Of a stretch of 39,453 bases of DNA, positions 3,350 to 21,685 are shown one piece after another. Under the pieces are notes generated by a model, which worked only from the letters and a program-made list of their open reading frames with translations, did not search any database and had not been told where the DNA came from. Within the stretch, counting starts at the first letter, position 1, and every line of letters starts with the position of its first letter. Source of the DNA: Clostridiaceae bacterium (GTDB lineage Bacteria; Bacillota; Clostridia; Acetivibrionales; DTU013); the NCBI GenBank assembly GCA_012519745.1, contig JAAYPO010000030.1, positions 1 through 39,453 of the forward strand. Reading direction: 5' to 3'. The position numbers were made by a program, and so were the translations under genes.

Positions 3350-3363
3350 GCAGGTGTGTCCGT

Positions 3364-5696: not shown

Positions 5697-6521
5697 TCAT
5701 TGATTTTCGCCGGTACTGTCTGTGCCGGACTGTCCTTCTTTGACATGTTCGTGATCATAAAGGTGATCCATACAGTATTCGTAGTCACCCTCACAATCCA
5801 CACAATACCTGAAGTCCATCTTCCTGTCCTCCACGTCGGTTTTTCCGCACACCGTACAGCGGTGCATCACATGTATCTTCGGGATCTTTGATCTGAAATT
5901 CTGTCTGTTCCTCTGGGCCTTCTGTCTGAACCTCAGTCTGTAATATACATCCTTCCAGAAAAACAGTATGAAATTCAAGGCCGAACCGAGGATCGTTATC
6001 AGTCCATAGAGCGGCGAGAAGCCGAAGCTCAGCACAAGGAACGCCGCATAGACTATAGCCAGGTACTTGATCTTCACCGGTATGAAGAAAAACAGCATCA
6101 GCTCATAATTGGGAAACAGGAATGCAAATGCAAATATCAGTGAAAGATTCAGGTACTGCGCCGATCCTGCTCCTCCCAAAAAGGCTCCTGCAATAGTTCC
6201 AAGTATTCCTATAAGGTAATACACATTGAATTTGAAGGAACCCCACTCGTTCTCCAGTGACGAGCCTATCAAATAATAAAAGTAAAGCGTGAACAGTATC
6301 CATATAGGACTAAAGTTCATCGGTATGAACAGGAAGGTCACAAGCCTCCAGACTTCGCCTTCCAGTACCAGGGACGGCACCAGCGCCAGCTTGTTCAGAA
6401 TATTCAACTCGGGAGCTAAAAACGAAAGAACGAATACAGCACCATTCAGCGTGGTTATATAAAGCATCAGGTTTCTGATACTATATTTACCGATCCTTCT
6501 TTCCAGTCTATCCAGCCACAA
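5697..6521 (-). CDS. Rhomboid-fold membrane protein, catalytically dead, with C-terminal zinc ribbon
   Basis: A 274-residue membrane protein with about six transmembrane segments in residues 15-195 and the rhomboid-type L1 stretch EGEVWRLVTFLFIP near residue 55. The GxSG serine motif of TM4 is absent (that region reads YLNLSLIFAFAFLFP), and no TM6 His is in place. It therefore resembles derlin-like pseudoproteases and not an active rhomboid. The cytoplasmic tail carries CTVCG and YCVDC pairs plus CMDH, a probable zinc ribbon. The start is put at TTG 6521, with GGGGAGG nine bases upstream; TTG 6530 abuts that site. It lies 50 bases after the DUF975 gene and is probably co-transcribed. Function is unknown. 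Confidence 0.75.
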   Translation of the reverse strand: MWLDRLERRIGKYSIRNLMLYITTLNGAVFVLSFLAPELNILNKLALVPSLVLEGEVWRLVTFLFIPMNFSPIWILFTLYFYYLIGSSLENEWGSFKFNVYYLIGILGTIAGAFLGGAGSAQYLNLSLIFAFAFLFPNYELMLFFFIPVKIKYLAIVYAAFLVLSFGFSPLYGLITILGSALNFILFFWKDVYYRLRFRQKAQRNRQNFRSKIPKIHVMHRCTVCGKTDVEDRKMDFRYCVDCEGDYEYCMDHLYDHEHVKEGQSGTDSTGENQ

Positions 6522-6571
6522 CTGTACCAACCTCCCCTTTCGGCATCATCATTTGTTTATCATTCTCCTTA

Positions 6572-7330
6572 TCAGAAATTATACTCCTCCTGACCGGGAT
6601 AATAAAGGTTCAATTCAGAAAGACTGCACATCCCGCTTTCGATGGCATTCTGCCTCAGTGTCAGGTACAACTCCGCAAATGTGGCATCCTCGTAAGGACG
6701 AACAAATAACCCGCCGATGAAAAAGAATAATGCACCTAGCAAATACCACCCGATGAATGATAGCTGAAGCACAAACATATCCAGCTTGTGCCCGCGGGTC
6801 ATGTTATCACTGAGCTCGATGGCCCTTTTGGCTCCGATATTGGGGTTGTCGGCAAGGATATACGGCACCATGCTGTACGCGTAACCTTTTATAATGCCAG
6901 GTATTATCAACAGCAGGGTCCACAGAAAAATATACAGATTCTTCAGAAACATCGAACCAACAATGCCCTTCCAATTGTAGCCGTCAAACGCGAATCTGAA
7001 GCATCCCCTATTGTCAAAGTACTGGGCTGACTGTATGAAGTACCTTCTGCCCCCCACCTGCAGTGGATTCAGTAGTAATACATTGATTGCGATCCCAACT
7101 AAGAATGCAAATACAGCCGCGCTTATTATAAGTACTATTAAAGCAGACATGTCCGAAGAACTGATCCCATATCTGTCAAGCTCCGATAAGCCTCCTGTTC
7201 TCCAACTGGATCCGCCGCCGCTCGATCCCCCTGTTGAAAGTCCGATCACCAAGCTTATAAGAAAGGCCTTCCAGTAGTTGCCTCTCAGTACCGCTTTAGC
7301 TCTTGCCTTCAGTTCCGCCCTGGTCCACAT
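6572..7330 (-). CDS. DUF975 family membrane protein
   Basis: A 252-residue integral membrane protein beginning MWTRAELKARAKAVLRGNYW, the family's usual amphipathic start. It is followed by TM segments near residues 22-35, 65-90, 130-155 and 190-225. A Gly/Ser-rich loop (TGGSSGGGSSW, about residues 33-43) separates the first helix from the rest. DUF975 proteins are widespread in Bacillota without a defined biochemical role. ATG 7330 is preferred over TTG 7336 because the GGGGG site (7338-7342) is seven bases upstream of it. A TATAAT element lies about 48 bases upstream. Confidence 0.8.
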   Translation of the reverse strand: MWTRAELKARAKAVLRGNYWKAFLISLVIGLSTGGSSGGGSSWRTGGLSELDRYGISSSDMSALIVLIISAAVFAFLVGIAINVLLLNPLQVGGRRYFIQSAQYFDNRGCFRFAFDGYNWKGIVGSMFLKNLYIFLWTLLLIIPGIIKGYAYSMVPYILADNPNIGAKRAIELSDNMTRGHKLDMFVLQLSFIGWYLLGALFFFIGGLFVRPYEDATFAELYLTLRQNAIESGMCSLSELNLYYPGQEEYNF

Positions 7331-7383
7331 ATACAAACCCCCGCTTTCAAAAAAATAACCTGCCGATTTACATCATATATACG

Positions 7384-7389
7384 ATTATA
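7384..7389 (-). promoter_or_regulatory. Candidate -10 element for the DUF975/rhomboid-like pair
   Basis: A perfect TATAAT on the minus strand stands about 50 bases before the DUF975 start, with no convincing -35. No terminator is visible between the giant protein gene and this point, so read-through from the pilus operon is also possible. Confidence 0.4.
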
Positions 7390-7473
7390 CAAAAGTATAC
7401 CGGATAAATAAAGGTTATGTCTGCGGAATAAGGCAAATCTACGGGATAACTCTATAACCAGGCTTAATATAGT

Positions 7474-10400
7474 TCAGTCCTTAGGCTGAATATAAGTCAA
7501 ATCATACACATTTCCGGTTATATCAATATCATCCACTACATAAGTTGCAGTGTTGCTCCCTTTATATGCCGTGACAGCCATGCTGTACTGCGGTCTCAGC
7601 CTGTTATTATTCCAATCCTTGCTGGATGGTGCCAGCGGCAGATGATATTCCCAGTGGGCGTGGTTATCTGAAACCGGTATCGTAGAATCCCCAGGGAAGC
7701 TAACCCGGTAGCCCATGAAATCGGCGCTGTAGTCATATGTGTGGCCATTGGGATCGGTATAGTGCATAGACTCAAGCTCCGGACTGAATCGTACAGTCAC
7801 TTTATCGGGATCGCCCAGAGTAGTGACATCGACATTTACACATTCCAATGACAAGAACCTATGCGGCTCTATAGTCATCTGCTTTCCAAAGATGTCCGTC
7901 TGACCTCTCCAATGATTCCAGTAACCGCTGATCTTAACATCAGTGATAGCCAGATTTACCAACTTGAATGATACATCCCTGCTTTGGGTTGTCCCATTGG
8001 GTGCAGCCGCAACAAATCTTGCCACATATTCCCCGTCCGGTATACCTGTAGGTATAGACAGGCTTCCTTTCCATTCCTTGCTCCCTCCGCTTGCTCCACC
8101 GGTATTGGCCAGGTTGTATGCTCTTGCGTTCGCCGTACTGTGGAACAATGTCACATTGACAGATTCCGCATATATGGATGTACTCGCAGCTACATCAATA
8201 ACAGCTCCGCCTGATGCTTCCGAAGGCATATTGGGTACTAGTCCAAGCGGTGTTGCAACTCTCACAGAAAAGCTTCGCACAGCGCTCCTGCCATCATCAC
8301 CCGCAGCAGATATCCTGAAATCATAAGTTTTATCAGGCAAGGTTTCAGGTATCTGGTATACTATGTTGTTCCAGTTGATATCATTACCGGTCCTGGTCCC
8401 CGTCTTATCTCCGGAAGCAGCAGTTTTCAGAGGTGAGACTCTGGAGGTACCATCGTATAAGGCCATCTCCAGCTTGACATCGCCTGGGTAGCGTGTCCAC
8501 AGATCATATGCCTCAAGCTTTTCCGACGCGGGGATCCCGGTAAGCCCGAAACGACTGTCCAGCGCCCGCAGCGAAGCATTGAACTGGATCAGAGGAGCTT
8601 CCTCAAGCGTGAAGTTCATTAGCATAGGTTCAGACCAGGTGTTTTCCAAGTCCCTTACATAATATCGCAGCTCATAAGTACCGGGGCTGAGCTTATCCGG
8701 AATAGTATAGATCCACTCTCCTCCTGTCACCCTGTACATTATCTTCCTCTCGATGATGCCTTTGTCTTCCCTGCTGTACTGGTGGTCCGGATCATATGAT
8801 CCATCCACCCAGGTTGTTCGATATACCATTTCTTCCTGGTCATAATCCCAGTCCAGTATTGCACTGGCCAGCGGCCTCCTGTGGGCATATATCTCTATGA
8901 ACGGTGTCCCGGAGTAACGTGAGAAGCTTTCGAAGGCAGGATCATCCGAAGGGTCATCCTTTACCCTCCTGTATATAGTGTATTTGCCTGGCTTTACAAG
9001 CTTGTCGGCAAGCATGTCCACCCAGCCTTCATGCTCGGAGTACTCGCTTACAGCAAATGATTCAAGACCGCATCCGTTATCAAAATAATCAGCATCATGG
9101 ACATAAAGCATCTTTCTTTCTGCTATACTGTCGTTCTCCTCGTCAAAATCCGCAACACTGAGGCACAAAGGCTCTTCTCCTGCCAGAAGAGTATATTTTT
9201 CGGCATCGCCTGTTTCGGCAACAATATCAAGGGCCTCCTGCATCAATATGCCTATATCCCGGTTGTTTACTATGAAATTCTCATTACCCACCTGCCTGCT
9301 GACGCTTGCCGGACCCACAAGTATTAGTTTTGCTCCGCTTCTGTTCAGCGCTGTACTCAGATCATTCATATTGTTTATCTTATCATCAGTTATGTAGATG
9401 ATATATTTCTTAGAAGTTGGCCTGAAGGGGTCTGTGTAAGGCTGCTTTACTTCTTTTCGGATGGTACCCTCATAAAAGCCTGTATAGTCATCATGCCATC
9501 TAAGGTCAGGCACCCACACCTGTACAGTCCTTGACACTTCACCGCTGTAATAGCCTGTAAATGTTCTTCTGCGGGTGTAAGTCTGGCCAATGACACCTGT
9601 TCCTGAAGGTACACCATTATCTGAATCAGTGGTATATGATACCTTATACAAAGTCCCTTTAAAGCCATCACTATCGTAGCTCATACTCGGCTGGTCAGAG
9701 GCACTTGATGAAACAAGCCTCCATCCGCTTGCAGTGTAAGTATAGTTTGCAGTTGCCCAACCGCTCAATGTCCCTGTAACTGTCTTACTCTCTACTCTAT
9801 TGGTATAGGAGCCTTCATCAGTCTGGTACCGGTTATTGGAAACACTTTTTCTTTCTAGTACACCATAATACCCGTTGCTTGTGTATTCTGTGGTTTTGGG
9901 CGGAGTGCTGCTGCCTGTCCTTACAGTACAGCTTGCAGGCTGAGTGTACTCATACGTATGAAGGTCCCATGTATCCACATTTGACTGAATATTGCATGAA
10001 CGCAGATAATTGTTGAATTCCAGTCTGTTATCCTTTATATACTTTACCTTTTCGCCTGCAAGAGATGAGTCCATCATTATAAAGGTATCTGCCTGAGTTC
10101 TGCTCAAGGGCATCTGTACATACAATCCTGTCATTGGCTGAATATTGTCCACCAGGATCTCACGCTCTACTGTCCTGCTCACACGATCTGCATCAGTGAT
10201 AAATTCTCTTATGGTGTCCTCGCCAAAACTCTCTTCCACCGTATTAATAAATTTGTATCTGCCCAGTCCTACAGGATGGAATTCAGGGAAGCCTTTGCCC
10301 CCGTCATAGGTTTCCAGCAGCTTATCATAGGTACCGTCATTGTTGCTGTCATACCAAAGCTCGATGGTGTTTTTACTCACAATATCGTTATCTGTGCTGC

Positions 10401-12291
10401 AGGCATTGTAATTCCAGGCACTGATTGTCTCCAGCCTCGAGATGACAGAGTTGTCAAGATCGATCTCCAGTGCAGGCTCATAGTCGGGGAAAACCTCAAA
10501 CCTCACTACATATGGGTCGGAAACCCGTCCAAGAGAGTTTTTGACGATCAGCTCCGCCTCATAGGAGCCAGGAGTTTTGAACAATAGATCTTTCTGAGTG
10601 ACGCTGATATCCTTCTTTTTAATTGATTCCTCACTTCCGCTGACAGCCCTGAATTTCCATGTGTATGAACTGATCGGGTATGCGCTGTTGACGATGGCGC
10701 ATCCTCCGATGCCGGATATGTCGGAAACAGTCAGCTTTCTGTTCTGTTTATATGTACCGGAAAGCCTGAACTGTGCTGTAGGCTTTGTGTCATATATATA
10801 TGTCCACGCTGTATGGAACGCAGTTTTTCCTTCGTTATCGGTATAGAAAACATCAATTTTCTTCAGACCATCCTGGCCTATACCGAATACATAATTACCG
10901 CTGAAAAACTGTTCATCATCGACTTCGATACCATTTATCAGCACCTTGCGCTCTGCGATCCCGCTCATATCTGTATTGTCACATGCATCAAACTTGACTA
11001 TATCAAAGCCCTTCTGAGGTATCACACATTTTGGGTCCATCAAAAAGGGCACCTTTTTCTCAATTATGTACTCCTTTATCGTGAAGTCCGCGCTCCCGCC
11101 GCTGCTTCCCTCGTCATATCTTTCATCAAAGTAAATGCATCGGGCGGTCGCCCTGAAATTGATGCCGTCTCCATTTAAAGACTTTATCTGACCTTTTGTC
11201 ATGGGGATAGTGAATATTGTTTTCGCATAATTGTCATATATCTGAATATCATCTTTCCTGGCCTGCTCGCCATTCAATGTGATCTCCCAGCGGTCCCTGT
11301 CTGCTCTTGTATAATAAACAGCCCTTGCCAGCTGGTCCTTCATGTGTTCTTCATCCTTGAGCGTGGCAATGACCTCTACCCTGACATCAATAGTCTGCTT
11401 CTCAAAGCCGTCTGGATTATCCTCTCCATAATCAATGAATTCCAGTTCACTTTCATTTTGCACATTGACTGAGACCTCAACCGGAGTATGCTCCTTCTGG
11501 TACTTCTTGATAGTGAAGCCCATGTAGAACAGCTTGCCCGCTTTATCAAACCTGAACATCCTGCCTTCTCCGTTGAACTTCGCCGATGGCGCCGACTGGA
11601 CATTGATAAAGTTATGAAAATCCCACGTCCCATCAGCCTTTCGCTCCGGCGCTGGGTTTTTGAGACCAGTGTCTTTAACACCATTTCTAATTCTAAACTC
11701 AGTCATGCCGTTGTTAATCCACTCACGCGTCTTTTCACCAAGAAAGTTTCCGTCTTTTTGTGCAGCTGTATTGTAAATACTGGCTTTCATTGTGGGCTCG
11801 CCTTTAAATATAGAGCTGATATAATCACTGTCCCAATAGCGGTATATCCAAGCGATATCCTCCAATGGTGTGGTTCTCTCTACATCTAAAGGAAAGTTTA
11901 TGTTGGCATATAGATTTCCTTCAAGTGTATACCCATCGTACCTGTACTCACCACGTTTATATCCAGCCTTTTTATAAAAGCCGATACCATTATCACTAAG
12001 TGTCTTTTCCTTATAATTCTTTCTGTAACTGCCGTCTGAATTTGCCTGCTCCGGTGTGCCATACACAACAATTCCTTTGCCATACCATATTCTGTAGTTA
12101 AAAGGCCTCCCCATAGAGGTAGGAGTAACACCATATGGCAGACCTGAAAGGTTTTCAAACAGATCAGGATTATCAAAATACGTCTCCCATTTACAACTGC
12201 TTTCATAGTATCTTGTATCATTCTTTGCCGTGGTAATATTTGGAAGTATAAAAGAAAAAACTAATATACAGATGAAAAATTTCTTTTTCAT
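7474..12291 (-). CDS. Giant secreted surface protein with Ig/PKD-like modules and a split vWA-like domain
   Basis: A 1605-residue exported protein. The signal peptide MKKKFFICILVFSFILPNIT is probably cut near residue 22 (TTA-KN). An N-terminal unknown region (about 25-260) is followed by beta-rich modules; the one near 505-610 looks PKD-like. A strand-helix start ADTFIMMDSSLAG (D741, S743) resembles a vWA metal site with the last Ser replaced by Ala. The matching strand KYIIYITDD (D969-D970) and GAKLILVG come only after an insertion of about 200 residues with four GYYG/GFKG/GYYSG/GFYEG repeats. More Ig-like modules fill 1100-1605. There is no LPXTG, SLH or C-terminal membrane anchor. It is last in the Tad operon, 32 bases after the SLH gene, with a weak ribosome site. 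I infer a pilus-linked adhesin or surface scaffold; the family resembles large uncharacterised proteins of cellulolytic Clostridia. Confidence 0.75.
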   Translation of the reverse strand: MKKKFFICILVFSFILPNITTAKNDTRYYESSCKWETYFDNPDLFENLSGLPYGVTPTSMGRPFNYRIWYGKGIVVYGTPEQANSDGSYRKNYKEKTLSDNGIGFYKKAGYKRGEYRYDGYTLEGNLYANINFPLDVERTTPLEDIAWIYRYWDSDYISSIFKGEPTMKASIYNTAAQKDGNFLGEKTREWINNGMTEFRIRNGVKDTGLKNPAPERKADGTWDFHNFINVQSAPSAKFNGEGRMFRFDKAGKLFYMGFTIKKYQKEHTPVEVSVNVQNESELEFIDYGEDNPDGFEKQTIDVRVEVIATLKDEEHMKDQLARAVYYTRADRDRWEITLNGEQARKDDIQIYDNYAKTIFTIPMTKGQIKSLNGDGINFRATARCIYFDERYDEGSSGGSADFTIKEYIIEKKVPFLMDPKCVIPQKGFDIVKFDACDNTDMSGIAERKVLINGIEVDDEQFFSGNYVFGIGQDGLKKIDVFYTDNEGKTAFHTAWTYIYDTKPTAQFRLSGTYKQNRKLTVSDISGIGGCAIVNSAYPISSYTWKFRAVSGSEESIKKKDISVTQKDLLFKTPGSYEAELIVKNSLGRVSDPYVVRFEVFPDYEPALEIDLDNSVISRLETISAWNYNACSTDNDIVSKNTIELWYDSNNDGTYDKLLETYDGGKGFPEFHPVGLGRYKFINTVEESFGEDTIREFITDADRVSRTVEREILVDNIQPMTGLYVQMPLSRTQADTFIMMDSSLAGEKVKYIKDNRLEFNNYLRSCNIQSNVDTWDLHTYEYTQPASCTVRTGSSTPPKTTEYTSNGYYGVLERKSVSNNRYQTDEGSYTNRVESKTVTGTLSGWATANYTYTASGWRLVSSSASDQPSMSYDSDGFKGTLYKVSYTTDSDNGVPSGTGVIGQTYTRRRTFTGYYSGEVSRTVQVWVPDLRWHDDYTGFYEGTIRKEVKQPYTDPFRPTSKKYIIYITDDKINNMNDLSTALNRSGAKLILVGPASVSRQVGNENFIVNNRDIGILMQEALDIVAETGDAEKYTLLAGEEPLCLSVADFDEENDSIAERKMLYVHDADYFDNGCGLESFAVSEYSEHEGWVDMLADKLVKPGKYTIYRRVKDDPSDDPAFESFSRYSGTPFIEIYAHRRPLASAILDWDYDQEEMVYRTTWVDGSYDPDHQYSREDKGIIERKIMYRVTGGEWIYTIPDKLSPGTYELRYYVRDLENTWSEPMLMNFTLEEAPLIQFNASLRALDSRFGLTGIPASEKLEAYDLWTRYPGDVKLEMALYDGTSRVSPLKTAASGDKTGTRTGNDINWNNIVYQIPETLPDKTYDFRISAAGDDGRSAVRSFSVRVATPLGLVPNMPSEASGGAVIDVAASTSIYAESVNVTLFHSTANARAYNLANTGGASGGSKEWKGSLSIPTGIPDGEYVARFVAAAPNGTTQSRDVSFKLVNLAITDVKISGYWNHWRGQTDIFGKQMTIEPHRFLSLECVNVDVTTLGDPDKVTVRFSPELESMHYTDPNGHTYDYSADFMGYRVSFPGDSTIPVSDNHAHWEYHLPLAPSSKDWNNNRLRPQYSMAVTAYKGSNTATYVVDDIDITGNVYDLTYIQPKD

Positions 12292-12323
12292 AATTACACA
12301 AACCTTTCAATTTGGTAGATTAA

Positions 12324-13601
12324 TTACTCCAGACTGTTGATAGAGAGTGAGAACCCATCATCTCCGCCAACTTTGTAAAAGAACATGAGGCGGCCATTAT
12401 ATGTTATCCTATCTATACGATGCTCTTTGTCATTTGATGTTGCGTATCCAAGATACCTATCAAATTCTTTCATAGCTTTATCAGCATCTTGTTCAAACCA
12501 GAACTTGAACATCTCATATATTGCATCTCTATGAATCCTATTAACAGCATCTGCATCATACAATGTTATATGGTATGGATTTCTCAATATATCAATATCG
12601 TTCAATGTTTCAATATCAACTGCCATTTGCATATTATGTATACTATTTTGTATATACATTTCCTCGTTTTCATAGAAAACGTAGACAATTCGATGGCCAT
12701 CGCCACATCCAATTGAACAATAGCCTTTGCTCTTCGGCCATGCTGTCCTAAATGCATTGGCCGCGTCAATAACTTCCTTCTTCATAGGCGGCCAGATTGT
12801 ATCAACAGTCCCATCTTCATATATACAAGTAAAAACCTCATCTGCTGCCGGTGTAAAGGGCACGCGCGAGCCGTCATTGAGATACCTAATCATGATAGTT
12901 GCCGCTTCAGCCCTTGTTAGAGTGCCCGCCGGTCTGAAATAGCCCTCCGATCCCCGGATGAGCCCGATCTCATAGGACTGCAGCACATACTGCTTGTTCA
13001 TATCCTTTATCGCACTATAATCCTTGATCTTCGAGCGTACCAGATTGTCAGGAGTATTATACGGATCATTATAAGGAAATTCCTCCTTCAACAGCGTGGC
13101 CTTTACAATGATCCTCGCAGCCTCCTCCCTGGTAATCGGCCGCTTGTAATCCGAATATTCATTTTGCGATATCAGCTTCTGCCCAATTGCGATATCAATA
13201 TAATTCTGAGCCCAGTACTTCGTATCCTCACCCGGTGCATAGCCCATAGATCTGACGACCATCTTGATATACTGGTCGACCTGTACAGGGTCATTTGGAT
13301 GAAAATTGCCCCCATAGCCCGATATTATATAGAGATATGAGAGCATCCCAACCTCTTTTCGGCTCCAGTGTGATCCCATGTCTCCATATAGTGAAAGAAC
13401 GTTTTCAATATCAGCGTCCTCCAGCGAAGTCAGCTTTTCCTGCAGTGGCTTCACTCTGTATGCCGCTTCATTTGCTTCAACTGCAAATGACTCAGTTGAT
13501 GTTAGAAAAACAAATAAAGCCAGGAGTACCATAGCAAGAATTACTTCAAGACACTTCCTTATCATCGTGTTTCCATACCAGGCATATTTCCCTTTCAGCA
13601 C
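12324..13601 (-). CDS. SLH-domain cell-wall-attached protein
   Basis: A 425-residue exported protein. The GTG start at 13601 has GAGGGGG seven bases upstream. The signal sequence core is ILAMVLLALFVFLTSTESFA. Three S-layer homology repeats follow at about residues 75-245, seen as GNFHPNDPVQVDQYIKMVV, RPITREEAARIIVKATL and GYFRPAGTLTRAEAATIMI. These bind pyruvylated secondary wall polymer in known proteins. The last 170 residues form an unrecognised domain with Cys pair CSIGCG and several aromatic strands. Located between the FHA protein (41-base gap) and the giant secreted protein (32-base gap) in one transcription unit, it may tether pilus or giant-protein components to the wall. That role is inference. 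Confidence 0.8.
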   Translation of the reverse strand: MLKGKYAWYGNTMIRKCLEVILAMVLLALFVFLTSTESFAVEANEAAYRVKPLQEKLTSLEDADIENVLSLYGDMGSHWSRKEVGMLSYLYIISGYGGNFHPNDPVQVDQYIKMVVRSMGYAPGEDTKYWAQNYIDIAIGQKLISQNEYSDYKRPITREEAARIIVKATLLKEEFPYNDPYNTPDNLVRSKIKDYSAIKDMNKQYVLQSYEIGLIRGSEGYFRPAGTLTRAEAATIMIRYLNDGSRVPFTPAADEVFTCIYEDGTVDTIWPPMKKEVIDAANAFRTAWPKSKGYCSIGCGDGHRIVYVFYENEEMYIQNSIHNMQMAVDIETLNDIDILRNPYHITLYDADAVNRIHRDAIYEMFKFWFEQDADKAMKEFDRYLGYATSNDKEHRIDRITYNGRLMFFYKVGGDDGFSLSINSLE

Positions 13602-13642
13602 AGCAAGTCCCCCTCACTAACTATCGTGCATACCGTCCGCTA

Positions 13643-15160
13643 TCATGACTGATTGCACAAGTAAACAAATTCACTGTTTGCAAACTGAAGACTGTCATTA
13701 TTCCTGAGCTCAACTTCCTTATTGCTCTCTATCCGTATGTCGTTCACAAATGTACCGTTGATGGAATTCAAATCCTTTACAAAGCAGGAACCGTTCCTGC
13801 ATATCAGCTCCGCATGCAGCTTGCCCACAGCATTGTTGAGCAGCACATGGTCCACATGTCCCTGCAGCCTGCCAATGATGATTTCCTCCCTATCGATCAT
13901 AATATCCCGGTCATTGGCAAAGCTCCCCTTGCTCTTGAGCATATGGATCTTCTTGTTGTTGTTGCTGAGTATTTCTGTCTTCTGCATATACCTCGACAAG
14001 TTATCCTCCTGGACCACTTTGTCTGACATATCAGCAATCATACTCTCAGCAACAGGATCCTTCTCCTTTATCCCGCTCCCTGTCAAGCACCTCAGTCTTT
14101 CATACGCTTTCGCTGCAGAAGTCTCCTCACGACACGGCATTATGCCTCCATATTTTTCTGCTCTATCCGGTTGGACCGCTCCAGTCTTTTGTACATTATC
14201 CTCTGCAGGATCAGGCATGTCCCTTTGCTCTGGCTGTTTGGCACGGCTGACATTGTATGCCCCAAACAGCTTCAATGCCTGGAGCTTTCTGAAAACGAGC
14301 ACATCGATGGCTATAACGATCATCAAAACAGCTGCGTATGTTGCAGTTCGATTTTCTCCGATATTATCGAGAAAGCCTCGGCAAGTAAAAATGATTCCCC
14401 CCATAACAATTTGTAAAAGAACTGCTGGAATTATTACAGATAAAGATATTTTTGTATCTTTGCTTTCTTTATTCTCCTTATCTTCCTGTTTTTCCTCTAT
14501 TTTATCTTTTTTACAACTCTTTTCAAGTGTTTTTTCGCTAAAATCCTGCTCCGGCAGTTGGACGGGTGATTTGGCAGCTCCTTCCCCATATAAGAGCTCA
14601 TTTATGAGTATCATGAAGCTCCTGAGATTGAACATCTCGCTGCTGACCTCTGACAAAATGCGCTGAACGATGTTTCCGCCAAACCCTGCTTCATTTATAT
14701 GCAGCATGAGCACATCAGAAACCAGGCTCTGAAAAGTCCTCCCGCTGTGGCCTCCCTCTTCTGCAGGTATGTAAATCAGCCTGGTTTCCATCGTATCCGG
14801 TTCAATAAACACATATTCCGGATCCAGGACGAAGTTGGATGAGGACAGCAGATAGCCGGCAGAATTATTGATGCAGGACGACAGATTCAACAGCAGCTTT
14901 AGAAATTCCATACGGCTGAGCTTATATCTCTTAAGATACATCAGCAGAGAGATCCTTGATGTTATGTTGTAATAAAAATGACAGGTTCCTTCAAACTTCA
15001 CCCTTTCTACAGGCACGATATACCGTATGGCATTATTCTCAAGCATTTTTGCCTGAAACTCCAATATCCCGGTTCCGCATCTAATCACAAGAAAGCTGGA
15101 CGCCGCATTGCTCTCATACCGAATTTCCAAACCCTTTGAATTCTCACAGTCCCAGGACAT
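13643..15160 (-). CDS. Membrane FHA-domain protein with DUF6382-like N-terminus
   Basis: A 505-residue protein. Residues 1-190 match the globular N-terminal domain found with FHA in Bacillota (DUF6382-like, from memory). A Lys/Glu-rich linker (205-237) leads to two TM helices (about 238-260 and 273-291). A polar linker of about 120 residues follows, then a C-terminal FHA domain (about 415-505) with GR, NAVGKLHAEL, and NSINGTFVND, the phosphothreonine-recognition loops. Both soluble ends would face the same side, presumably the cytoplasm. A GGAGGGGAGG ribosome site precedes ATG. It sits 81 bases after the pilin gene. By analogy with FHA proteins of other secretion systems it may dock phosphorylated assembly factors, but no Ser/Thr kinase gene is in the window. 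Confidence 0.8.
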   Translation of the reverse strand: MSWDCENSKGLEIRYESNAASSFLVIRCGTGILEFQAKMLENNAIRYIVPVERVKFEGTCHFYYNITSRISLLMYLKRYKLSRMEFLKLLLNLSSCINNSAGYLLSSSNFVLDPEYVFIEPDTMETRLIYIPAEEGGHSGRTFQSLVSDVLMLHINEAGFGGNIVQRILSEVSSEMFNLRSFMILINELLYGEGAAKSPVQLPEQDFSEKTLEKSCKKDKIEEKQEDKENKESKDTKISLSVIIPAVLLQIVMGGIIFTCRGFLDNIGENRTATYAAVLMIVIAIDVLVFRKLQALKLFGAYNVSRAKQPEQRDMPDPAEDNVQKTGAVQPDRAEKYGGIMPCREETSAAKAYERLRCLTGSGIKEKDPVAESMIADMSDKVVQEDNLSRYMQKTEILSNNNKKIHMLKSKGSFANDRDIMIDREEIIIGRLQGHVDHVLLNNAVGKLHAELICRNGSCFVKDLNSINGTFVNDIRIESNKEVELRNNDSLQFANSEFVYLCNQS

Positions 15161-15197
15161 ATTTTCCTCCCCTCCGACACTCTACTCAATTGAACTT

Positions 15198-15222
15198 ATG
15201 GCACTTTACCCGTCACTGCCAT
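15198..15222 (-). other. Intercistronic stem-loop after the pilin gene
   Basis: ATGGCA (15198-15203) and TGCCAT (15217-15222) form a 6-bp stem with a 13-base loop, without a T-run, in the longest gap inside the operon. It could protect the upstream pilin message or set a lower level of downstream genes. Evidence is only the inverted repeat and its place. Confidence 0.3.
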
Positions 15223-15241
15223 TGCCTCGACAACAAAATAA

Positions 15242-15460
15242 TTAATTGATGATTTTGTTGTTGGCCCTGATACTGCCGCTGTCAACATCATTAATGATAG
15301 ATTTGTCATCAAAGGCACTTCTCAAAATATCTGTGACAAACTTGATGATCGCATCCCTGAATATCAGCGCTATCCCCACCAGCACAGCAACTATCACTAC
15401 GATCTCTACAGTTCCCATTCCGTCCTCCTCACTGAGAAAGCTTTTCAGAAAACGTTTCAC
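15242..15460 (-). CDS. Flp-type (type IVb) pilin
   Basis: A 72-residue prepilin. A short basic leader MKRFLKSFLSEEDG ends in Gly14, followed by MGTVE, so Glu sits at position +5 of the mature form, the signature of type IV prepilins. A single hydrophobic helix of about 18 residues follows (IVVIVAVLVGIALIF) and then a short polar tail, as in Flp1-like pilins. The GTG start at 15460 is chosen because GGAGGTGAT lies five bases upstream; the open frame extends 18 codons further without a ribosome site. It is flanked by tadC (16 bases) and the FHA gene. It is the only pilin seen, and no prepilin peptidase gene is in view. Confidence 0.85.
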   Translation of the reverse strand: MKRFLKSFLSEEDGMGTVEIVVIVAVLVGIALIFRDAIIKFVTDILRSAFDDKSIINDVDSGSIRANNKIIN

Positions 15461-15476
15461 AATATCACCTCCGATC

Positions 15477-16337
15477 CTATATATTACGCAACGCAAGTAC
15501 AGCCGGCATCCCAACGATCAACAGTATTGCCGTGAGCATCAGCATCATAGGAAAAAGCAGTTTTGTGGACGCCTCTTCTCCAAACTTTTTAGCCGTCGAT
15601 TTTCTCAGCTCCCAGCATTCACTGGCAAAAAGCCGAAAAACAGGTACAAGCTCATCATTACCTTTCCTCATGTTCTGCAGCACAACAGATACAAAACGGG
15701 TTATCACCGGCACATGACATCGTTGGGCAAATTCCTCAAATGCCTTATATTCAGGTACTCCCGACCTAATATCCAGCACCGAGACCCCCAACTCTATATA
15801 AAGGGGAGTCTGTCTGTTAGTATCTAAAGCCGCCTTTTCCCATGCCCTTGAAACCGTCATCCCTGCGTTGACCAACAGCGTGAGCTTATTAACGAAGTCC
15901 GGAAAGTCCAGTTGTATCGATTGTCTTCGTTTCTTTACCCTTTCCATCAGATCCCTGTCGCTGAATATGATAATGCCTGCCTGCAGTAATATGCAAAATA
16001 CTGCATACCCCGTATCAAGCTTGGTCGTGGTTCCGACAAACAATAAAAAGACCAATGATATCATCATCAATGATATTTTGCCGCCCCAATGGATGCGCAG
16101 CATATCCAAAGCCTTCTTGTGGCCGTACAGTTCAGCCTCGGCTATCAGCAGCTTCCTGTCATAGCCGGTATTATAGCCGTATTTGAAGGTATCGAGAATG
16201 TAGAGTCCTATTGGAAGGAGCCCTTTTAGCTGAAACTCTCTTTTATCCAGCCCTTCGATGATTTGCGAATAGCTTTTGTACGATACAATATACAAAAGGA
16301 CAAGGATAATGATGTATACGGCCAAAACTATGATCAT
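15477..16337 (-). CDS. tadC: Tad pilus inner-membrane platform protein TadC
   Basis: A 286-residue T2SSF-type membrane protein, partner of TadB in the pilus assembly platform. There are TM segments at the N-terminus (MIIVLAVYIIILVLLY), two in the middle near residues 90-130, and one at the C-terminus. The cytoplasmic T2SSF core near residues 145-240 contains FVNKLTLLVNAGMTVSRAW and GNDELVPVFRLFA. ATG 16337 is preferred over GTG 16346 because GAGGTGG lies about six bases upstream of it. It follows tadB after about 24 bases and precedes the pilin by 16. Confidence 0.88.
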   Translation of the reverse strand: MIIVLAVYIIILVLLYIVSYKSYSQIIEGLDKREFQLKGLLPIGLYILDTFKYGYNTGYDRKLLIAEAELYGHKKALDMLRIHWGGKISLMMISLVFLLFVGTTTKLDTGYAVFCILLQAGIIIFSDRDLMERVKKRRQSIQLDFPDFVNKLTLLVNAGMTVSRAWEKAALDTNRQTPLYIELGVSVLDIRSGVPEYKAFEEFAQRCHVPVITRFVSVVLQNMRKGNDELVPVFRLFASECWELRKSTAKKFGEEASTKLLFPMMLMLTAILLIVGMPAVLALRNI

Positions 16338-16361
16338 GGCAACCACCTCTGAGATATTATG

Positions 16362-17111
16362 CTAGAGCTTTATATCACACACCTTTGATGAAATAAACCA
16401 CGCAGCGGCTATCAATATGATCGATACACTCATGGTAAGCCTGCCGGCAACTGTACTGAAAACTGGATATATATACTCCGGAGAGCTTACAGAAAGCAAC
16501 AGTATCATCAGTACAGGCACTGCATTGAGCACCTTCTGCTCAAATTTGCGCTCCGCCAGCATCATATCTACCTCCTGTCCCACCTCTATCCTGTCGCTGA
16601 TGATCGCCGATGTATTTCGTATGATTGCCGATATGTTGCCCCCGGATCTTTTACTGATGTTAATGACGCTGACAAAGTTGTCTACATCCTCAAGAGAAGC
16701 CCGCTCAGCAAATTCAGACAGGGCATGCTCAAGGGTTTCATTCATATCCAGCCTGCTTATGATCCTTTTTATCTCAACAAGTATAAACGTCGACGGCTCC
16801 GGATACAGCACCGACAGGTCTCTTAACGCTTCCTTGAAAGCATGCTCGATGGTTCTTCCGGCAGATACGGAGGAAGCCAGTGAATACAGCATATCCTTGA
16901 ACTGAATATTAAGCTCCTTTTTGCGACGCTTGATTATCTCCTTTGTTTTTATTCTCGGGTACAAAAGTGCAAGGGGTGTCAGAAGCAGTGAGAAAACGAC
17001 ACTCCTGTAGAAAATAAAAGCAATGGCGAAAATAAATACGCCTGCACATGCCGTATAGAAAAGCCTCTCTCTTATACTCATCTCATACGAATCATAGCTC
17101 TGGATCATCAC
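16362..17111 (-). CDS. tadB: Tad pilus inner-membrane platform protein TadB
   Basis: A 249-residue T2SSF-domain protein. Two N-terminal TM helices (about residues 15-50) precede a cytoplasmic helical core with FKDMLYSLASSVSAGRTIEH and ISKRSGGNISAIIRNT, the latter being the most conserved T2SSF stretch in TadB. Two TM helices follow at the C-terminus (about 195-245). The start is GTG 17111 or ATG 17108; the gene overlaps the tadA stop either way, implying translational coupling. TadB and TadC form the platform that TadA drives. Confidence 0.9.
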   Translation of the reverse strand: MMIQSYDSYEMSIRERLFYTACAGVFIFAIAFIFYRSVVFSLLLTPLALLYPRIKTKEIIKRRKKELNIQFKDMLYSLASSVSAGRTIEHAFKEALRDLSVLYPEPSTFILVEIKRIISRLDMNETLEHALSEFAERASLEDVDNFVSVINISKRSGGNISAIIRNTSAIISDRIEVGQEVDMMLAERKFEQKVLNAVPVLMILLLSVSSPEYIYPVFSTVAGRLTMSVSIILIAAAWFISSKVCDIKL

Positions 17112-18445
17112 ACACCGCCCAATCTGCAGCTAATGCCTGCCATCCTGAGTTTCACGGTATTGATAAGCATATTGCCGGTTGGCTTCAGGCTTCCTCTTAC
17201 CATTCTGTCATCCTCAGATGTGCCACAGCTGTTCTTCTCATTCTCACACCCCTGGTCCCTGTGCTCCTCGAACAGATAGAGGGGATTCAGATGTATCATA
17301 CCGCCTGCATATCCGGATACTTCGCATATTTCAAGGACCCGTCTGGATTTGTCCCTCAATCTTGAAAGGTGGACGATTATATCTATCGCTGAGGCTATCT
17401 GCTGACGTACTGCCTCCAGCGGCAGCGACGCCGCTGATATGACCATTGTTTCAAGACGCTTGAGCATATCGGCAGCAGAATTCGCATGGCCCGTGGATAG
17501 TGAGCCGTCATGGCCGGTATTCATTGCCTGCAGCATGTCCAGCGCCTCCTCGCCCCTCACCTCTCCGACTATTATCCTCTCAGGCCTCATCCTGAGTGAT
17601 GTTTTGATGAGCTCTCTAATGGATATCCTTCCTCTGCCTTCACTGTTGGCAGTCCTGGCCTCAAGCCGGACTATGTTCTCAACTCCCTTTATCTGAAGCT
17701 CAGCAGAATCTTCTATGGTAATGATCCGCTCATCCGGAGGTATCCTTCCTGCCAGGGCATTGAGAAATGTAGTTTTGCCGCTTCCGGTACCGCCACATAT
17801 GAAAATGTTGTATTTCGCTCTGACCAGACAGCTCAGCACCTCCTCCGCCTCGGCACTCAATGATCCCAGATCGACAAGCTGCTCCAGGGTCATGGGGCTG
17901 TCCGGGAACTTTCTAATCGTCATTATCGGCCCATTCAGCGCTACAGGCTTCAAAACCACATTTACCCTTGATCCGTCCGGCAGCGTAAAGTCAACAATGG
18001 GAGATGCTTCATTGACTATCCTGTTTGTGCGGGACACCATATTGTGTATCACATCCTCCAGTCTCTCAAAGCTGTCAAATGACCGTTTAGACCTGCTGAT
18101 CCGCCCTCCCCGCTCTATAAAGAGCTTGTCCGGTCCGTTGATCATGATCTCGGTTATACTCTTGTCCTCTATGACCGGCTGCAGTATATCGAGTCTCCTC
18201 ATGGAGTTGAACACCAAATCGGCCAGTTCCCGTCTTTCCCTTATATTCATATTAGCGCACTCTGGTTTGCGGAAAACCGCCTCTGTGATGGTATCCATCA
18301 GTTCTTCATCAGATATCTCCCTTGAGCTGTCAAGACCCTGTTTTATCTCCGATCTGATATCCTCTGCAAGGGCCCTGCCCTCTGCGGCCTGGCCGCAGGG
18401 ATCGATGAGTGATATCGTGTCCGTGGCATCATACAATGAACTCAC
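17108..18445 (-). CDS. tadA: Tad pilus assembly ATPase TadA (CpaF)
   Basis: A hexameric secretion ATPase of the CpaF/VirB11 group, 445 residues, cytoplasmic, powering Flp pilus assembly. The N-domain (about 60-200) contains the family sequence [19 protein letters not shown]. The Walker A is [14 protein letters not shown] (about residues 217-230). The Asp box reads [10 protein letters not shown], the Walker B region [20 protein letters not shown], and the His box [16 protein letters not shown]-terminal tail of about 45 residues is variable. The annotated GTG abuts its GGGGG site; TTG 18436, three codons in, has better spacing. It overlaps the tadZ end by 8-17 bases. Confidence 0.93.
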
Positions 18446-19706
18446 CCCCGTCCCATAAACCCGCCGCTTCGTTTCCTAAAGCCGCAGCTGCCCCTGAAGC
18501 AGTTGCCCCGTCCCATAGGGCTGCTGTCCGATCCACAGAGGCTGAAACCCCTAATGACCCCTCTGTCCCTTCCCATAAGGCTGCCATCCGATCCATTGAG
18601 GAAGCTTCCTGTTTCTTGTCAGGCAGAAAGTGATTGACAGCTTTGTTCAATTCAGCTAGAAATGCCGGGTTCTCCACAGGCCGGATGAAAGCTTTGGTAC
18701 CGGATGATACCGAATGGTCCGATATCTCGGCAATAGGTCTGTAGCTTGAGACTCTGCTGCAATTTATCTGTTTCTTTGAGAAATTCATTATTGGCATTAG
18801 CTTGCTTATGAGATTTATATTCAGTCTTTCTTCAAACATCTCCAGGCCTTTGCCGAATTTGTCGATGCTGTTCTGCAGCCTGAGATCCGGTGTCAGGATC
18901 ATAAGGATCACATCGGAATATTTCAGCACAGAGGAATTCCTTTCATTGAGCCCGGTTGGCAAATCGATAAAGACAGCGCTATAGGCGGAGCTTTTCCTGA
19001 ATTCAAAGAGGAGTCTTGAAATATCCTGCTCTGTGAGCTCATTCATGTCAAGTATATTTGCAGCCGGCCTGAAAAAGTGCACACCGGTCCCGGCATCGAT
19101 ACACCTGGCAGCCTCCAGCTTCAGCCACAGATTCGGGCTGCTGCCCTTCAGCTGATATATCACATTGGAAAAGCTTTGCCTGGAGTCTCCATGAAAGAAC
19201 ATCTCGGTAGAGGGTATGTCTTCAAGGTTCATATAGAACGTTCTCATTCCCCTGCCGGTACATAAAATGCTGCATCCGGCCGCTATGCTGCTTTTACCCG
19301 TTCCCCCGGCAGGTGACACGACGCTTACTACCTGCGTGCCTCCATTGCCGTATACCGGACATTCCTTTCTGCTGCACAGAGTGTAAAGCCTGATCACCTC
19401 AGAGATCAGCCTGTCCATATGCTGATATTTTTGTACGGCTTCCAGCCCGGAGGGTGCGGCCGATTCATTCTCTGAGAGTATCAGGACTATTTCCTGCTTC
19501 TCCGTATTGATTATTTCCTTATACATTTTACTGCTGACAAGAAGAACATCTATTTTGTGTGATTCACCAAGATAGGCATTGAGTGGCTCTGCGGCTGAAA
19601 ATGACGCTAAATCAAACCGCTTTGGATGGTATGTAATCAAATATTTCTCGAAATTCTGTAAATATTCCGCATCATAATCTGCTATAACAAGACTGAGCCT
19701 TCCCAA
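18429..19706 (-). CDS. tadZ: TadZ/CpaE-like pilus-localising ATPase with Trp-repeat tail
   Basis: A 425-residue protein. A degenerate receiver-like domain fills residues 1-110 (VIADYDAEYLQNF at the start). A MinD/ParA-type ATPase follows with SPAGGTGKSSIAAGC (residues 131-145) and IDLPTGL. The usual signature Lys two residues into the deviant Walker A is Ala133 here; only Lys138 remains. TadZ proteins place the Tad machine at a site in the cell. The last 55 residues carry three AALWEG/AALWDG/AGLWDG motifs with Trp378, 398 and 418, exactly 20 residues apart, which I do not know from TadZ proteins. It is the first gene of the operon, with TTG start after GGGGGGAG, about 63 bases downstream of the predicted transcription start. 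Confidence 0.82.
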   Translation of the reverse strand: MGRLSLVIADYDAEYLQNFEKYLITYHPKRFDLASFSAAEPLNAYLGESHKIDVLLVSSKMYKEIINTEKQEIVLILSENESAAPSGLEAVQKYQHMDRLISEVIRLYTLCSRKECPVYGNGGTQVVSVVSPAGGTGKSSIAAGCSILCTGRGMRTFYMNLEDIPSTEMFFHGDSRQSFSNVIYQLKGSSPNLWLKLEAARCIDAGTGVHFFRPAANILDMNELTEQDISRLLFEFRKSSAYSAVFIDLPTGLNERNSSVLKYSDVILMILTPDLRLQNSIDKFGKGLEMFEERLNINLISKLMPIMNFSKKQINCSRVSSYRPIAEISDHSVSSGTKAFIRPVENPAFLAELNKAVNHFLPDKKQEASSMDRMAALWEGTEGSLGVSASVDRTAALWDGATASGAAAALGNEAAGLWDGGEFIV

Positions 19707-19775
19707 AATCGCTCCCCCCTGTACTTACATTTACAACAATGTCCAAAAATAATGTAAATATATGGTTGTGCAATT

Positions 19776-19804
19776 ATTATATGGAAAAACTCTCTATCTG
19801 TCAA
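19776..19804 (-). promoter_or_regulatory. Consensus sigma-A promoter of the Tad/FHA/SLH operon
   Basis: On the minus strand TTGACA (19799-19804), a 17-base spacer and TATAAT (19776-19781) match the housekeeping consensus at all 12 positions. Transcription should begin near 19769, giving a 5' leader of about 63 bases with a weak TTACATT/AATGTAA hairpin before the tadZ ribosome site. This predicts strong basal transcription unless repressed. Confidence 0.88.
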
Positions 19805-19866
19805 TTCCTATTTTTCAATTATTTACCATTATGCCTTTGAAAATATACGGCATACTACAGCAAGCA

Positions 19867-20478
19867 CTACCTTTCATACTTGCCGATAAGCTCATCCTGT
19901 TCCTTTTTGACAAAGGTCTTGATATGATTGAAGACAATAGGACCGTTATGGCGGATTTTCAGACCATACTCATAATAGCCGTCCCATTGGACCTGTCTTA
20001 CGATCTCTGCAGTAAGTGAGAGGATATCTCTTGCAAGATATATATCTATCATCAGCGTCAGCCCTTTGAAATGCGGCTCCCTGGAGTATATCATAAGGCC
20101 GTAATCACTTATGTCCTTTACAAGTGCAAGGTATTTTTTATTTCCCGGTGCTTCAGCCACCCTGTAGTCGGCATACAGCGAAACGGGAAATCGCTCATAT
20201 GACCTCATTCTGCTGCCCTCATCAAATTCATCCTCTGAGTATTCCAACAGCTCGTCTCTCCTGTTGAATCCCAGGATCCTGCCTCCCCGGATAAATGCTT
20301 TCGAATCTTTTTCAAAGGATGTAACTATGGGATCGCCTGCAAGAAAGGTTGATTTCATACATTCCTTCGGGAGCCTGATCACTATGGACTGTTCCCTGAC
20401 CTGTTCTACAATAGCGTTGAACAAGCTGATCATAGAGTAATGTCTTACCGCTACAACGATGCCCTCAGCCGGTTTCAT
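19867..20478 (-). CDS. PilZ-domain protein, probable c-di-GMP receptor
   Basis: A 203-residue cytoplasmic protein. An N-terminal beta-rich YcgR-like domain (about 1-85) precedes a C-terminal PilZ domain (about 90-200) with both c-di-GMP motifs intact: RxxxR as RSYER (R92, R96) and DxSxxG as DISDYG (D122, S124, G127). ATG 20478 is chosen since GGGGGTG lies just before it; the longer frame has no ribosome site. It lies 160 bases upstream of tadZ on the same strand with no clear terminator between. c-di-GMP control of the adjacent pilus genes or of motility is an inference from position and motifs. Confidence 0.85.
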   Translation of the reverse strand: MKPAEGIVVAVRHYSMISLFNAIVEQVREQSIVIRLPKECMKSTFLAGDPIVTSFEKDSKAFIRGGRILGFNRRDELLEYSEDEFDEGSRMRSYERFPVSLYADYRVAEAPGNKKYLALVKDISDYGLMIYSREPHFKGLTLMIDIYLARDILSLTAEIVRQVQWDGYYEYGLKIRHNGPIVFNHIKTFVKKEQDELIGKYER

Positions 20479-20521
20479 TCCGCACCCCCGTATACCAGCA
20501 TTTATTGTATCTCGCAATATA

Positions 20522-20527
20522 ATTATA
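20522..20527 (-). promoter_or_regulatory. Candidate -10 element for the PilZ gene
   Basis: A perfect minus-strand TATAAT is 44 bases before the ATG, without a recognisable -35. The rest of the roughly 300-base divergent gap to the first small peptide gene (20545-20777) shows no gene I can support. A plus-strand TTGACA at about 20678 has no good partner. Confidence 0.4.
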
Positions 20528-20777
20528 CAATATCTGTGCATCACATGAAAGATTTCTGTCTTTTTTTTTACACCACCAGCCGTTTTTCATTGCTTCTTCA
20601 CCGGACCATCCCTGACGATCGGAGGCATATGTCTATTTTGATGTCACCGACTAGAAGCGGCATTAATATAATGGTATTGACAGCCGGGGATGCGAGTAAC
20701 AATTTTGACCTAAGATGAATAAATTAGATTAGCGGAACAATTTATGTTACCTCAATGGTCGAAAGGAGGCCTCAACA

Positions 20778-20882
20778 ATGTCGGAAAGAGGATGCGGTAA
20801 TTTTTTTGATGACAATTGCACGATTTTGTTCTTTATTATTCTGTTCCTGCTGCTATTCTTCGATAATAAGCATTTCTGCTGA
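20778..20882 (+). CDS. Small hydrophobic YjcZ-like peptide 1
   Basis: A 34-residue peptide starting MSERGCGNFFDDNC and continuing into one hydrophobic helix TILFFIILFLLLFF, ending DNKHFC. AAGGAGG stands eight bases before the ATG. Peptides of this make (Cys/Gly head, Ile/Leu/Phe helix) are common in spore-forming Bacillota and are often annotated as YjcZ-family sporulation proteins. The hydrophobic block is nearly the same as in the second peptide, showing duplication. A terminator follows. Confidence 0.72.
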   Translation: MSERGCGNFFDDNCTILFFIILFLLLFFDNKHFC

Positions 20883-20929
20883 ACAGCGGCATTAAGGGAA
20901 GAAACCGGCAATTAATGAGTAAGTCGAAG

Positions 20930-20957
20930 AAACCACCCATCACGGGTGGTTTTGCTT
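20930..20957 (+). terminator. Terminator after small peptide 1
   Basis: AAACCACCC (20930-20938) and GGGTGGTTT (20944-20952) form a perfect 9-bp stem with a 5-base loop, followed by TGCTTT. It separates peptide 1 from peptides 2 and 3. Confidence 0.8.
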
Positions 20958-21056
20958 TATGCCCAAAAATGCTGCCTGCAAGTAACACATATCTGCGCAT
21001 TTGAATATGATATAGAAGGCAGCATGGTCGAACATGCAGATAAAGGAGGTATAGCA

Positions 21057-21182
21057 ATGTCAAAAGGATTCGTCGGCGGAGCATTCGACAATTGCGCGCT
21101 TTTGTTCTTCATTATCCTGTTTCTCCTGTTATTCACAGACCGCAGGTTTTTTACAAGAGCTGATACAAGTATAGTCGAGTAA
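21057..21182 (+). CDS. Small hydrophobic YjcZ-like peptide 2
   Basis: A 41-residue paralogue of the first peptide: MSKGFVGGAFDNCALLFF followed by IILFLLLF and a charged tail of about 16 residues (TDRRFFTRADTSIVE). AAAGGAGGT lies eight bases before the ATG. One TM helix is predicted, with the basic tail probably cytoplasmic or toward the forespore side. The protein differs from peptide 1 mainly by the longer tail. Peptide 3 follows after 30 bases. Confidence 0.7.
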   Translation: MSKGFVGGAFDNCALLFFIILFLLLFTDRRFFTRADTSIVE

Positions 21183-21212
21183 CAACTTTATTATATGAAG
21201 GGAGTGTATAGC

Positions 21213-21353
21213 ATGGCAGATAATGAAAGAGGCGGGCTCTTCGGGTGCGGGTTCGGTACAAACTGGATATGGATCATCATAATCATACTGGTCATCATAC
21301 TGTTGTTCCCCGCCATTTTCGGAAGAGAAGAAGAGGGTTATTACAAGGAATAA
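21213..21353 (+). CDS. Small membrane peptide 3
   Basis: A 46-residue peptide: MADNERGGLFGCGFGTN head, a TM helix of Ile/Val/Leu (WIWIIIIILVIILLFPAIF) and an acidic tail REEEGYYKE. It has a ribosome site GAAGGGAG. The Gly-Cys-Gly head resembles the two upstream peptides, but the helix is different, so it is a related type and not a recent copy. No function is known; a spore-envelope role is a guess from similar peptides in spore formers. Confidence 0.65.
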   Translation: MADNERGGLFGCGFGTNWIWIIIIILVIILLFPAIFGREEEGYYKE

Positions 21354-21407
21354 AAAATTAACGGTACGTTCAGCTTACCCATGACACCAGTTATATACTT
21401 ATGCCTC

Positions 21408-21460
21408 AGAGGACAGTATTACCGGCCTGAAAAGGGCTGATGATGCTGTCCTCTTTGTTT
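21408..21460 (+). terminator. Hairpin terminator after small peptide 3
   Basis: AGAGGACAG (21408-21416) pairs with CTGTCCTCT (21446-21454) around a 29-base loop, followed by TTGTTT. The rest of the 332-base gap to the SLH-transglutaminase gene holds only its promoter and leader. Confidence 0.65.
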
Positions 21461-21526
21461 AGACTCAGATGTGAATCATAAATTGTCAAATTGTAGCCCG
21501 GCTTTTCCTCGTTTCAAATCGAAAAC

Positions 21527-21555
21527 TTGCATAATTTACCTATTAATGCTATAAT
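21527..21555 (+). promoter_or_regulatory. Sigma-A promoter of the SLH-transglutaminase gene
   Basis: TTGCAT (21527-21532), a 17-base spacer and perfect TATAAT (21550-21555). Transcription would start near 21562 and leave a leader of about 124 bases, which contains a small TCTATT/AATAGA hairpin near 21625-21642. Confidence 0.7.
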
Positions 21556-21685
21556 ACCGATGTGTTATGTATAATTTATAACCTTGCATATTAATTGAGG
21601 TCGATTTTTTACCCTGATTTTTTGTCTATTTATGCGAATAGATGTATTAGCAGCGTAACTGTAAAGGGTCATGAGGATGTAATTA

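Follow-up and report, generated by a model that had tools for sequence, protein, structure and literature searches.

Association of a minimal Tad pilus operon with an SLH protein and a giant exported protein in Clostridia

Gram-positive Tad pili are widespread among Clostridia but have hardly been studied, including their passage through the wall and the make-up of their tip. Imam et al. reported that the prepilin peptidase TadV is encoded in most, but not all, Gram-positive tad loci and that C. cellulolyticum has tad-like loci without pilins (Imam et al. 2011, PMC3244431). TadG, CpaL, and Kil are proposed adhesive or sensory tips of Gram-negative Tad pili, and CpaL has a vWA domain (PMC12607857, PMC12075869). 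Tad-like loci consistently bear TadEFG-like tips according to the Kil study (PMC12075869), whereas the locus described here has none. Among large exported proteins, CmoA of Paenibacillus sp. NAIST15-1 combines vWA and Ig-like (IPT) domains and is required for surface behaviour (PMC5072692). Athe_2463 and Athe_2464 of C. bescii are found outside the cell, and growth on xylan and xylose strongly induces both, Athe_2463 becoming almost 16-fold more abundant on these substrates; both were proposed as possible xylanases, and Tad was unmentioned (Poudel et al. 2018, PMC5865380).

The window analysed in this study is the whole 39,453-nucleotide contig JAAYPO010000030.1, which is part of a 3.07 Mb draft genome of a Clostridiaceae bacterium. 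Its Tad locus has in common with the Tad loci of Lachnospiraceae and Paenibacillus the gene order tadZ-tadA-tadB-tadC-flp and a terminal DUF6382-FHA gene, and the TadA proteins are 55-61% identical. Between flp and the FHA gene, the loci of Lachnospiraceae and Paenibacillus encode TadE, a DUF5702/Tad-domain protein, a second TadE, and often TadV; the window locus has none of these and, unlike those loci, continues into genes for an SLH protein and a giant exported protein. The giant also differs from the proposed Gram-negative tips: TadG, CpaL, and Kil are minor pilins with prepilin-like N-termini, whereas the giant begins with a conventional signal peptide and matches no curated vWA family. 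The gene of CmoA lies in a flagellar cluster without an SLH partner or a link to Tad, while the giant has both. No description of the combination of SLH protein, giant, and Tad genes was found in the open-access literature, and the locus genes were not found mentioned in the main text of the R. cellulolyticum proteome paper.

Gene content and transcription signals of the locus

The open reading frames and their Pfam matches bear out the order tadZ-tadA-tadB-tadC-flp-FHA-SLH-giant given in the initial annotation, with all eight genes on the minus strand and neighbouring genes separated or overlapping by no more than 81 bases. The spacings from tadZ to the giant gene are -17, -4, +15, -38 (+16 with the later flp start), +81, +41, and +32 bases. 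The first gene, tadZ (18429-19706), has a TTG start and encodes a 425-aa protein with a receiver-like and a MinD/ParA-like ATPase part. Its match to the receiver family PF21194 is weak and under the cut-off (E 2.6e-4), it matches CpaE/MinD families, and its placement 5' of tadA is kept among relatives. Core components of a Tad system are present, with the TadA/CpaF motor ATPase (17108-18445; T2SSE, PF00437, E 3.8e-59) and the two platform proteins TadB (16362-17111; T2SSF, PF00482, E 1.2e-7) and TadC (15477-16346; PF00482, E 2.5e-7). TadA also matches TIGR03819 (E 2.4e-89, under the family cut-off), and a tree and BLAST comparisons place it in a short, DUF6382-FHA-linked lineage, here called type A.

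The lone pilin of the locus is one Flp (15242-15460, minus strand; Flp1_like, PF16982, E 2.6e-17), for which a GTG start at 15460 is likelier than that of the longest reading frame from 15514 (15242-15514). It has a class III signal peptide with the prepilin site EEDG/MGTVEI (the slash marks the site), in which Glu is at +5 and Ile, not Tyr, at +6. Because Ile replaces Tyr at this position, the protein is "Flp-like" as Imam et al. define it. No TadE, TadF, or TadG minor pilin was found between tadC and the FHA gene or elsewhere in the operon, and no TadV in the locus; the genome has one Peptidase_A24 prepilin peptidase gene, which is located elsewhere. A second Tad locus of this genome, classical in kind, includes a CpaB-like and one TadE-like gene (L147, G000 contig 99), and another contig has two adjacent T2SSE motor genes of the PilB/PilT type (L148, G000 contig 11). 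One prepilin peptidase was found in the genome for all three loci together.

The gene following flp (13643-15160, minus strand) had been labelled as FHA; the FHA domain is present (PF00498, E 1.7e-13), and the label is incomplete, as the protein also has a DUF6382 domain (PF19909, E 4.3e-29) and a transmembrane segment. The SLH gene (12324-13601) and the giant gene (7474-12291) complete the operon on the same strand. The perfect promoter claimed for it was likewise found: a TTGACA-N17-TATAAT element with 12/12 consensus positions lies at 19776-19804 on the minus strand, 70 bases 5' of tadZ, and a motif scan of 6400-21800 gave this single 12/12 site. Terminator-like elements were not in excess (13 observed against 10.3 expected), and no strong one was found within the operon. 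Judging from the gene spacing, the Tad-FHA-SLH-giant block is probably co-transcribed. Genes for a DUF975 (6572-7336) and a rhomboid-like (5697-6530) membrane protein follow directly downstream of the giant gene in this order, and since no clear terminator or other sign of an operon end lies 3' of the giant gene, they could be transcribed with it. Two genes of similar size likewise lie 3' of the giant gene in a sister genome (L119). The whole gene block is kept at the genus, family, and order levels.

A PilZ gene (19867-20544, minus strand; PF07238, E 1.3e-8) is directly upstream with the intact motifs RSYER (RxxxR) and DISDYG ([DN]xSxxG), as had been noted from the sequence. Control by c-di-GMP had been considered on this ground. 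This idea retains the adjacency of PilZ within the genus, where the gene is upstream in all three loci with that side resolved, and the 16 GGDEF matches in the genome; it is weakened by the absence of PilZ upstream of about 20 other Tad loci of the same type with upstream sequence (0 found). The neighbour survey thus rules out PilZ as a member of the conserved system beyond the genus, and the suggested c-di-GMP link is a weak one that depends on a genus-specific neighbour. Adjoining the PilZ gene, at 21686-23422, is a gene for a divergent exported protein with SLH and transglutaminase-like parts; an SLH-bearing gene is placed likewise in L119.

The SLH protein and the giant exported protein

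The SLH protein has a signal peptide, three SLH repeats (PF00395, E 5.7e-14; 52.3 bits over two repeats) with a TRAE-type motif, the third repeat reading LTRAE in alignment A2, and a conserved C-terminal domain (residues ~250-425) that is confined to giant-linked orthologues. No LPxTG motif or C-terminal membrane helix was found in it, and its C-terminal domain had no match in a PDB sequence search. In the order of the host, a profile of the orthologues gives full-length matches essentially only beside giants; the other SLH proteins of these genomes match the repeats alone. The SLH and giant genes are adjacent in 23 loci, with gaps of -7 to 143 bases. The two PS_pyruv_trans (pyruvyl-transferase-family) genes of the genome are compatible with SLH binding to a pyruvylated wall polymer. 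In three loci (L140, L129, and L313), a PF07833 (Cu_amine_oxidN1) protein fills the SLH slot, immediately preceding the giant or the Athe_2463 protein. This position therefore seems to require a surface-retention protein, with PF07833 presumably serving in that role.

The giant (1605 aa) has a signal peptide and, having neither LPxTG nor a C-terminal membrane helix, is not itself anchored to wall or membrane. The Pfam search gave no curated domain. Residues 64-260 (11512-12102, minus strand) match the Athe_2463 domain NF047340 (E 4.2e-45; 154 bits against a cut-off of 36), the same domain as in Athe_2463 of C. bescii, which has 572 aa and no giant body. Residues ~535-620 (10432-10689, minus strand) match collagenase PKD profiles weakly (E 0.005-0.05) as a PKD/Ig-like domain, and PKD was found in 17 of the 24 members of the giant family.

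Residues ~734-1027 may form a vWA-type α/β domain split by an insert. The suggested first half (residues ~734-785, ADTFIMMDSSL; 9937-10092, minus strand), which reads VDIVILTDYTGT in relatives, and the second half (residues ~960-1027, KKYIIYITDD...AKLILVG; 9211-9414, minus strand), proposed from an hhalign comparison, are separated by a Tyr-rich β insert of ~175 aa. In relatives whose giant is split into two proteins, the second protein starts with VDIVILTDYTGT or a similar sequence. The profile support is weak (P 0.005-0.01), with hhalign giving P 0.005 over 37 columns of the second half only; VWA does not appear among the families that Pfam lists for the 24 members, and the MIDAS of the window protein is degenerate. 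The most conserved core, with a PKD-like end, spans residues 985-1245 (8557-9339, minus strand; 17 invariant columns in the A3 profile).

At the C-terminus, residues 1441-1605 (7477-7971, minus strand; GYWNHWRGQ...DIDITGN.YDL.YIQP) form a module of class C1, one of four unrelated classes found at this position among relatives. It is 48-78% identical across families, above most remaining regions of the giant, and had no match in a PDB sequence search. AlphaFold gave no confident fold, with a pLDDT of 35.6 for residues 640-1245 with one relative (L153) and of 33.4 for the C1 module alone. That relative, which is 40% identical, is encoded at the left end (1-3738) of an IMG/VR contig listed as viral and is followed by many short unknown genes; the contig is possibly host sequence or cargo. 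Scans of viral contigs for further relatives of the giant gave this one locus and then none.

Recurrence beside several Tad lineages

The initial annotation proposed that the SLH and giant genes belong with the Tad genes, a proposal that would be contradicted if every relative lacked both genes at this locus. The survey of gene neighbourhoods gave the opposite result: the pair is kept behind Tad operons across families. Relatives of the giant are present in 31 of the 60 genomes of the order, and the giant core in 28 of the 391 genomes of the class. DUF6382-FHA proteins occur in 57 of the 60 genomes of the order, usually as a single copy, and most of their loci are Tad loci. Type A Tad loci take three forms. 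The first has TadE-DUF5702-TadE-TadV and no giant, as in Lachnospiraceae and Paenibacillus; the second is minimal and has the SLH-giant pair (the window, L119, L124, L125, L142, L155, and L157, together with L156, L164, and L174 at contig ends); and the third has neither set. One locus (L139) carries both sets. Replacement of TadE and DUF5702 by the SLH protein and the giant was considered and is not claimed, because the Fisher test gave p 0.003 per locus but p 0.6 by family, and L139 has both.

Sixteen of the 23 adjacent SLH-giant pairs sit behind Tad genes, which corresponds to a binomial p of about 1e-19 at a rough chance level of p=0.03 per locus; this 3% level was estimated by us, and although there is some dependence among the loci, the excess is very large. 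The pair is carried by at least five TadA lineages, with identities of 23-32% from one lineage to another and 50-94% inside a lineage. Besides type A, these are B1 (L126, L130, L135, L332, and L333), B2 (L120, L132, L137, and L330), B3 (L123), C (L128 and L321, with L140 having the PF07833 protein instead of SLH), and D (L307, with L305 lacking SLH). One genome (G007) has two SLH-giant pairs behind two Tad operons of different lineages (L120 and L157). In a sample of 398 genomes drawn evenly from the phylum, 9 of the ~17 readable Athe_2463-domain loci have a Tad motor gene within ~10 kb. The association of the SLH-giant pair with Tad genes is not due to chance.

A genome with an Athe_2463-domain protein at 2.60 Mb, which we take to be that of Caldicellulosiruptor bescii, encodes in order a 627-aa protein, the Athe_2463-domain protein, TadZ, a prepilin peptidase, a CpaB-like protein, TadZ, TadA, and TadB. 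As this Tad gene cluster is directly downstream, Athe_2463 proteins of the C. bescii type are also linked to Tad; their partner is not an SLH protein by Pfam, unlike that in the window. The data give a functional context to this domain, which so far had no more than its name; its C. bescii members belong to the proteins with the strongest induction on xylan.

The last ~165 residues of the giants follow the Tad lineage and not the giant body (permutation p=0.0008, for 12 lineages that were grouped by hand and assumed independent, with TadA groups checked by tree and BLAST). Class C2 accompanies Tad B2 in three lineages, one of which has the divergent giant of G049; class C3 accompanies B1, and class C1 accompanies A and C. 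The giants of L126 and L132, which belong to one genus and follow different Tad operons (B1 and B2, respectively), are 83% and 88% identical in the N-terminal and middle parts but 10% identical over the final 165 residues. Classes and lineages do not pair off uniquely: C4 and C1 are each found with two Tad lineages, and some genomes with an orphan C2 giant have no close B2 Tad. Because otherwise similar giants have unrelated ends that follow the Tad lineage, the giant may touch the Tad machine through its end. This correlation is the best evidence for such a contact and is not proof of it. The C-terminal domain of the SLH protein was also considered as a binder of the module, which the data do not support, as SLH domains are similar where modules differ; since this domain does not track the C-terminal class, it is uninformative on the contact region of the giant.

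In lineages B3 and C, the giant-linked operons of L123, L128, and L140 open with a Ser/Thr protein kinase-like gene; type A operons have an FHA domain, which binds phospho-Thr. Behind the B1 Tad operons of L332 (G045) and L333 (G040), several frames interrupt the giant genes and, in L333, the SLH gene as well; both genomes have intact copies elsewhere.

Possible function of the SLH-giant pair

We propose, as a reading with an even chance of being correct, that the operon produces a minimal Tad filament and a docked giant adhesin held at the wall. The filament would be of the Gram-positive Tad (type IVc) kind, with the giant and the SLH protein as surface partners. TadA, together with TadB and TadC, would polymerise Flp after its processing by the sole prepilin peptidase of the genome, and TadZ, probably along with the DUF6382-FHA protein, would position or regulate the machine. 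The giant, a putative chain of Ig/PKD-like and possibly vWA-like domains, would leave the cell via Sec as the adhesive part, and its C-terminal module of ~165 residues would dock on the filament or its base. The SLH protein would bind the secondary cell-wall polymer and retain the giant or the exit of the pilus at the wall. Requirements of these steps are present in the host, namely one prepilin peptidase gene and two pyruvyl-transferase-family genes of the type that the SLH ligand requires. We infer docking, the tip or base position, adhesion, and co-transcription. The data make the giant a specific candidate for the adhesive part that this Gram-positive Tad pilus otherwise lacks, and its C-terminal module a candidate for docking.

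PilY1 of type IVa pili is a large Sec-exported non-pilin protein that is tied to pilus genes, and the giant is like it in this respect, in its possible vWA-like domain, and in having an end region through which it may bind the pilus. The giant would act like PilY1 but is not homologous to it, and its setting is an SLH partner and a Tad machine; Pfam did not detect the PilY1 β-propeller in the window giant, nor does it appear among the families listed for 24 relatives.

More broadly, it is conceivable, although we hold it tentatively and think it rather doubtful as a whole, that unrelated Tad lineages of Bacillota adopted a common modular partner, consisting of an SLH or PF07833 protein and an Athe_2463-type giant with an exchangeable C-terminal module that fits the given Tad machine. 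In the minimal version seen in the window, this partner would replace the TadEFG tip, and the non-pilin giant would cap the filament or be driven out by it.

It is somewhat unlikely that the SLH protein and the giant instead form a static, wall-anchored adhesin, and that the Tad pilus is a separate structure expressed from the shared promoter for surface life without contact. In favour of this, the giant is itself unanchored, its pairing with the SLH protein is tighter than the linkage to Tad, and five Ruminiclostridium-like loci of one genus (L127, L131, L134, L136, and L138) have the pair without a nearby Tad gene; given these loci and the genomes with an orphan C2 giant and no close B2 Tad, the pair is able to stand apart. 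Linkage to at least five Tad lineages and a C-terminal module that tracks the Tad lineage, not the giant body, would be unexpected without interaction.

We consider it improbable that the Tad machine is an exporter, in which a short Flp/TadE-like pseudopilus drives the Sec-exported giant through the wall and S-layer in a manner similar to type II secretion and the SLH protein receives it. Such a role would suit the cargo size of 1400-2700 aa, the single pilin of the window locus without TadE, TadF, or TadG, and the loci of the B1 type, which have no recognisable pilins, as reported for C. cellulolyticum (Imam et al. 2011, PMC3244431). Type A loci, however, retain a canonical Flp with a prepilin site, which elsewhere is a Tad pilus subunit. 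Large proteins also pass Gram-positive walls without machines of this kind.

A neutral neighbourhood, in which a Tad operon and an unrelated SLH-giant pair were merely inherited together, would fit simple descent within the genus and a genome with about 30 SLH proteins, and is refuted in practice, with very little probability left to it, by the recurrence of the pair next to Tad operons of unrelated kinds in many families, the Athe_2463-domain relatives across the phylum, and an SLH orthologue specific to giants.

Elsewhere in the window, an ordinary-looking export and response cluster on one strand (29428-35812) encodes two ABC-2 permeases, an ABC ATPase, two acetyltransferases, and a LuxR-type two-component pair.
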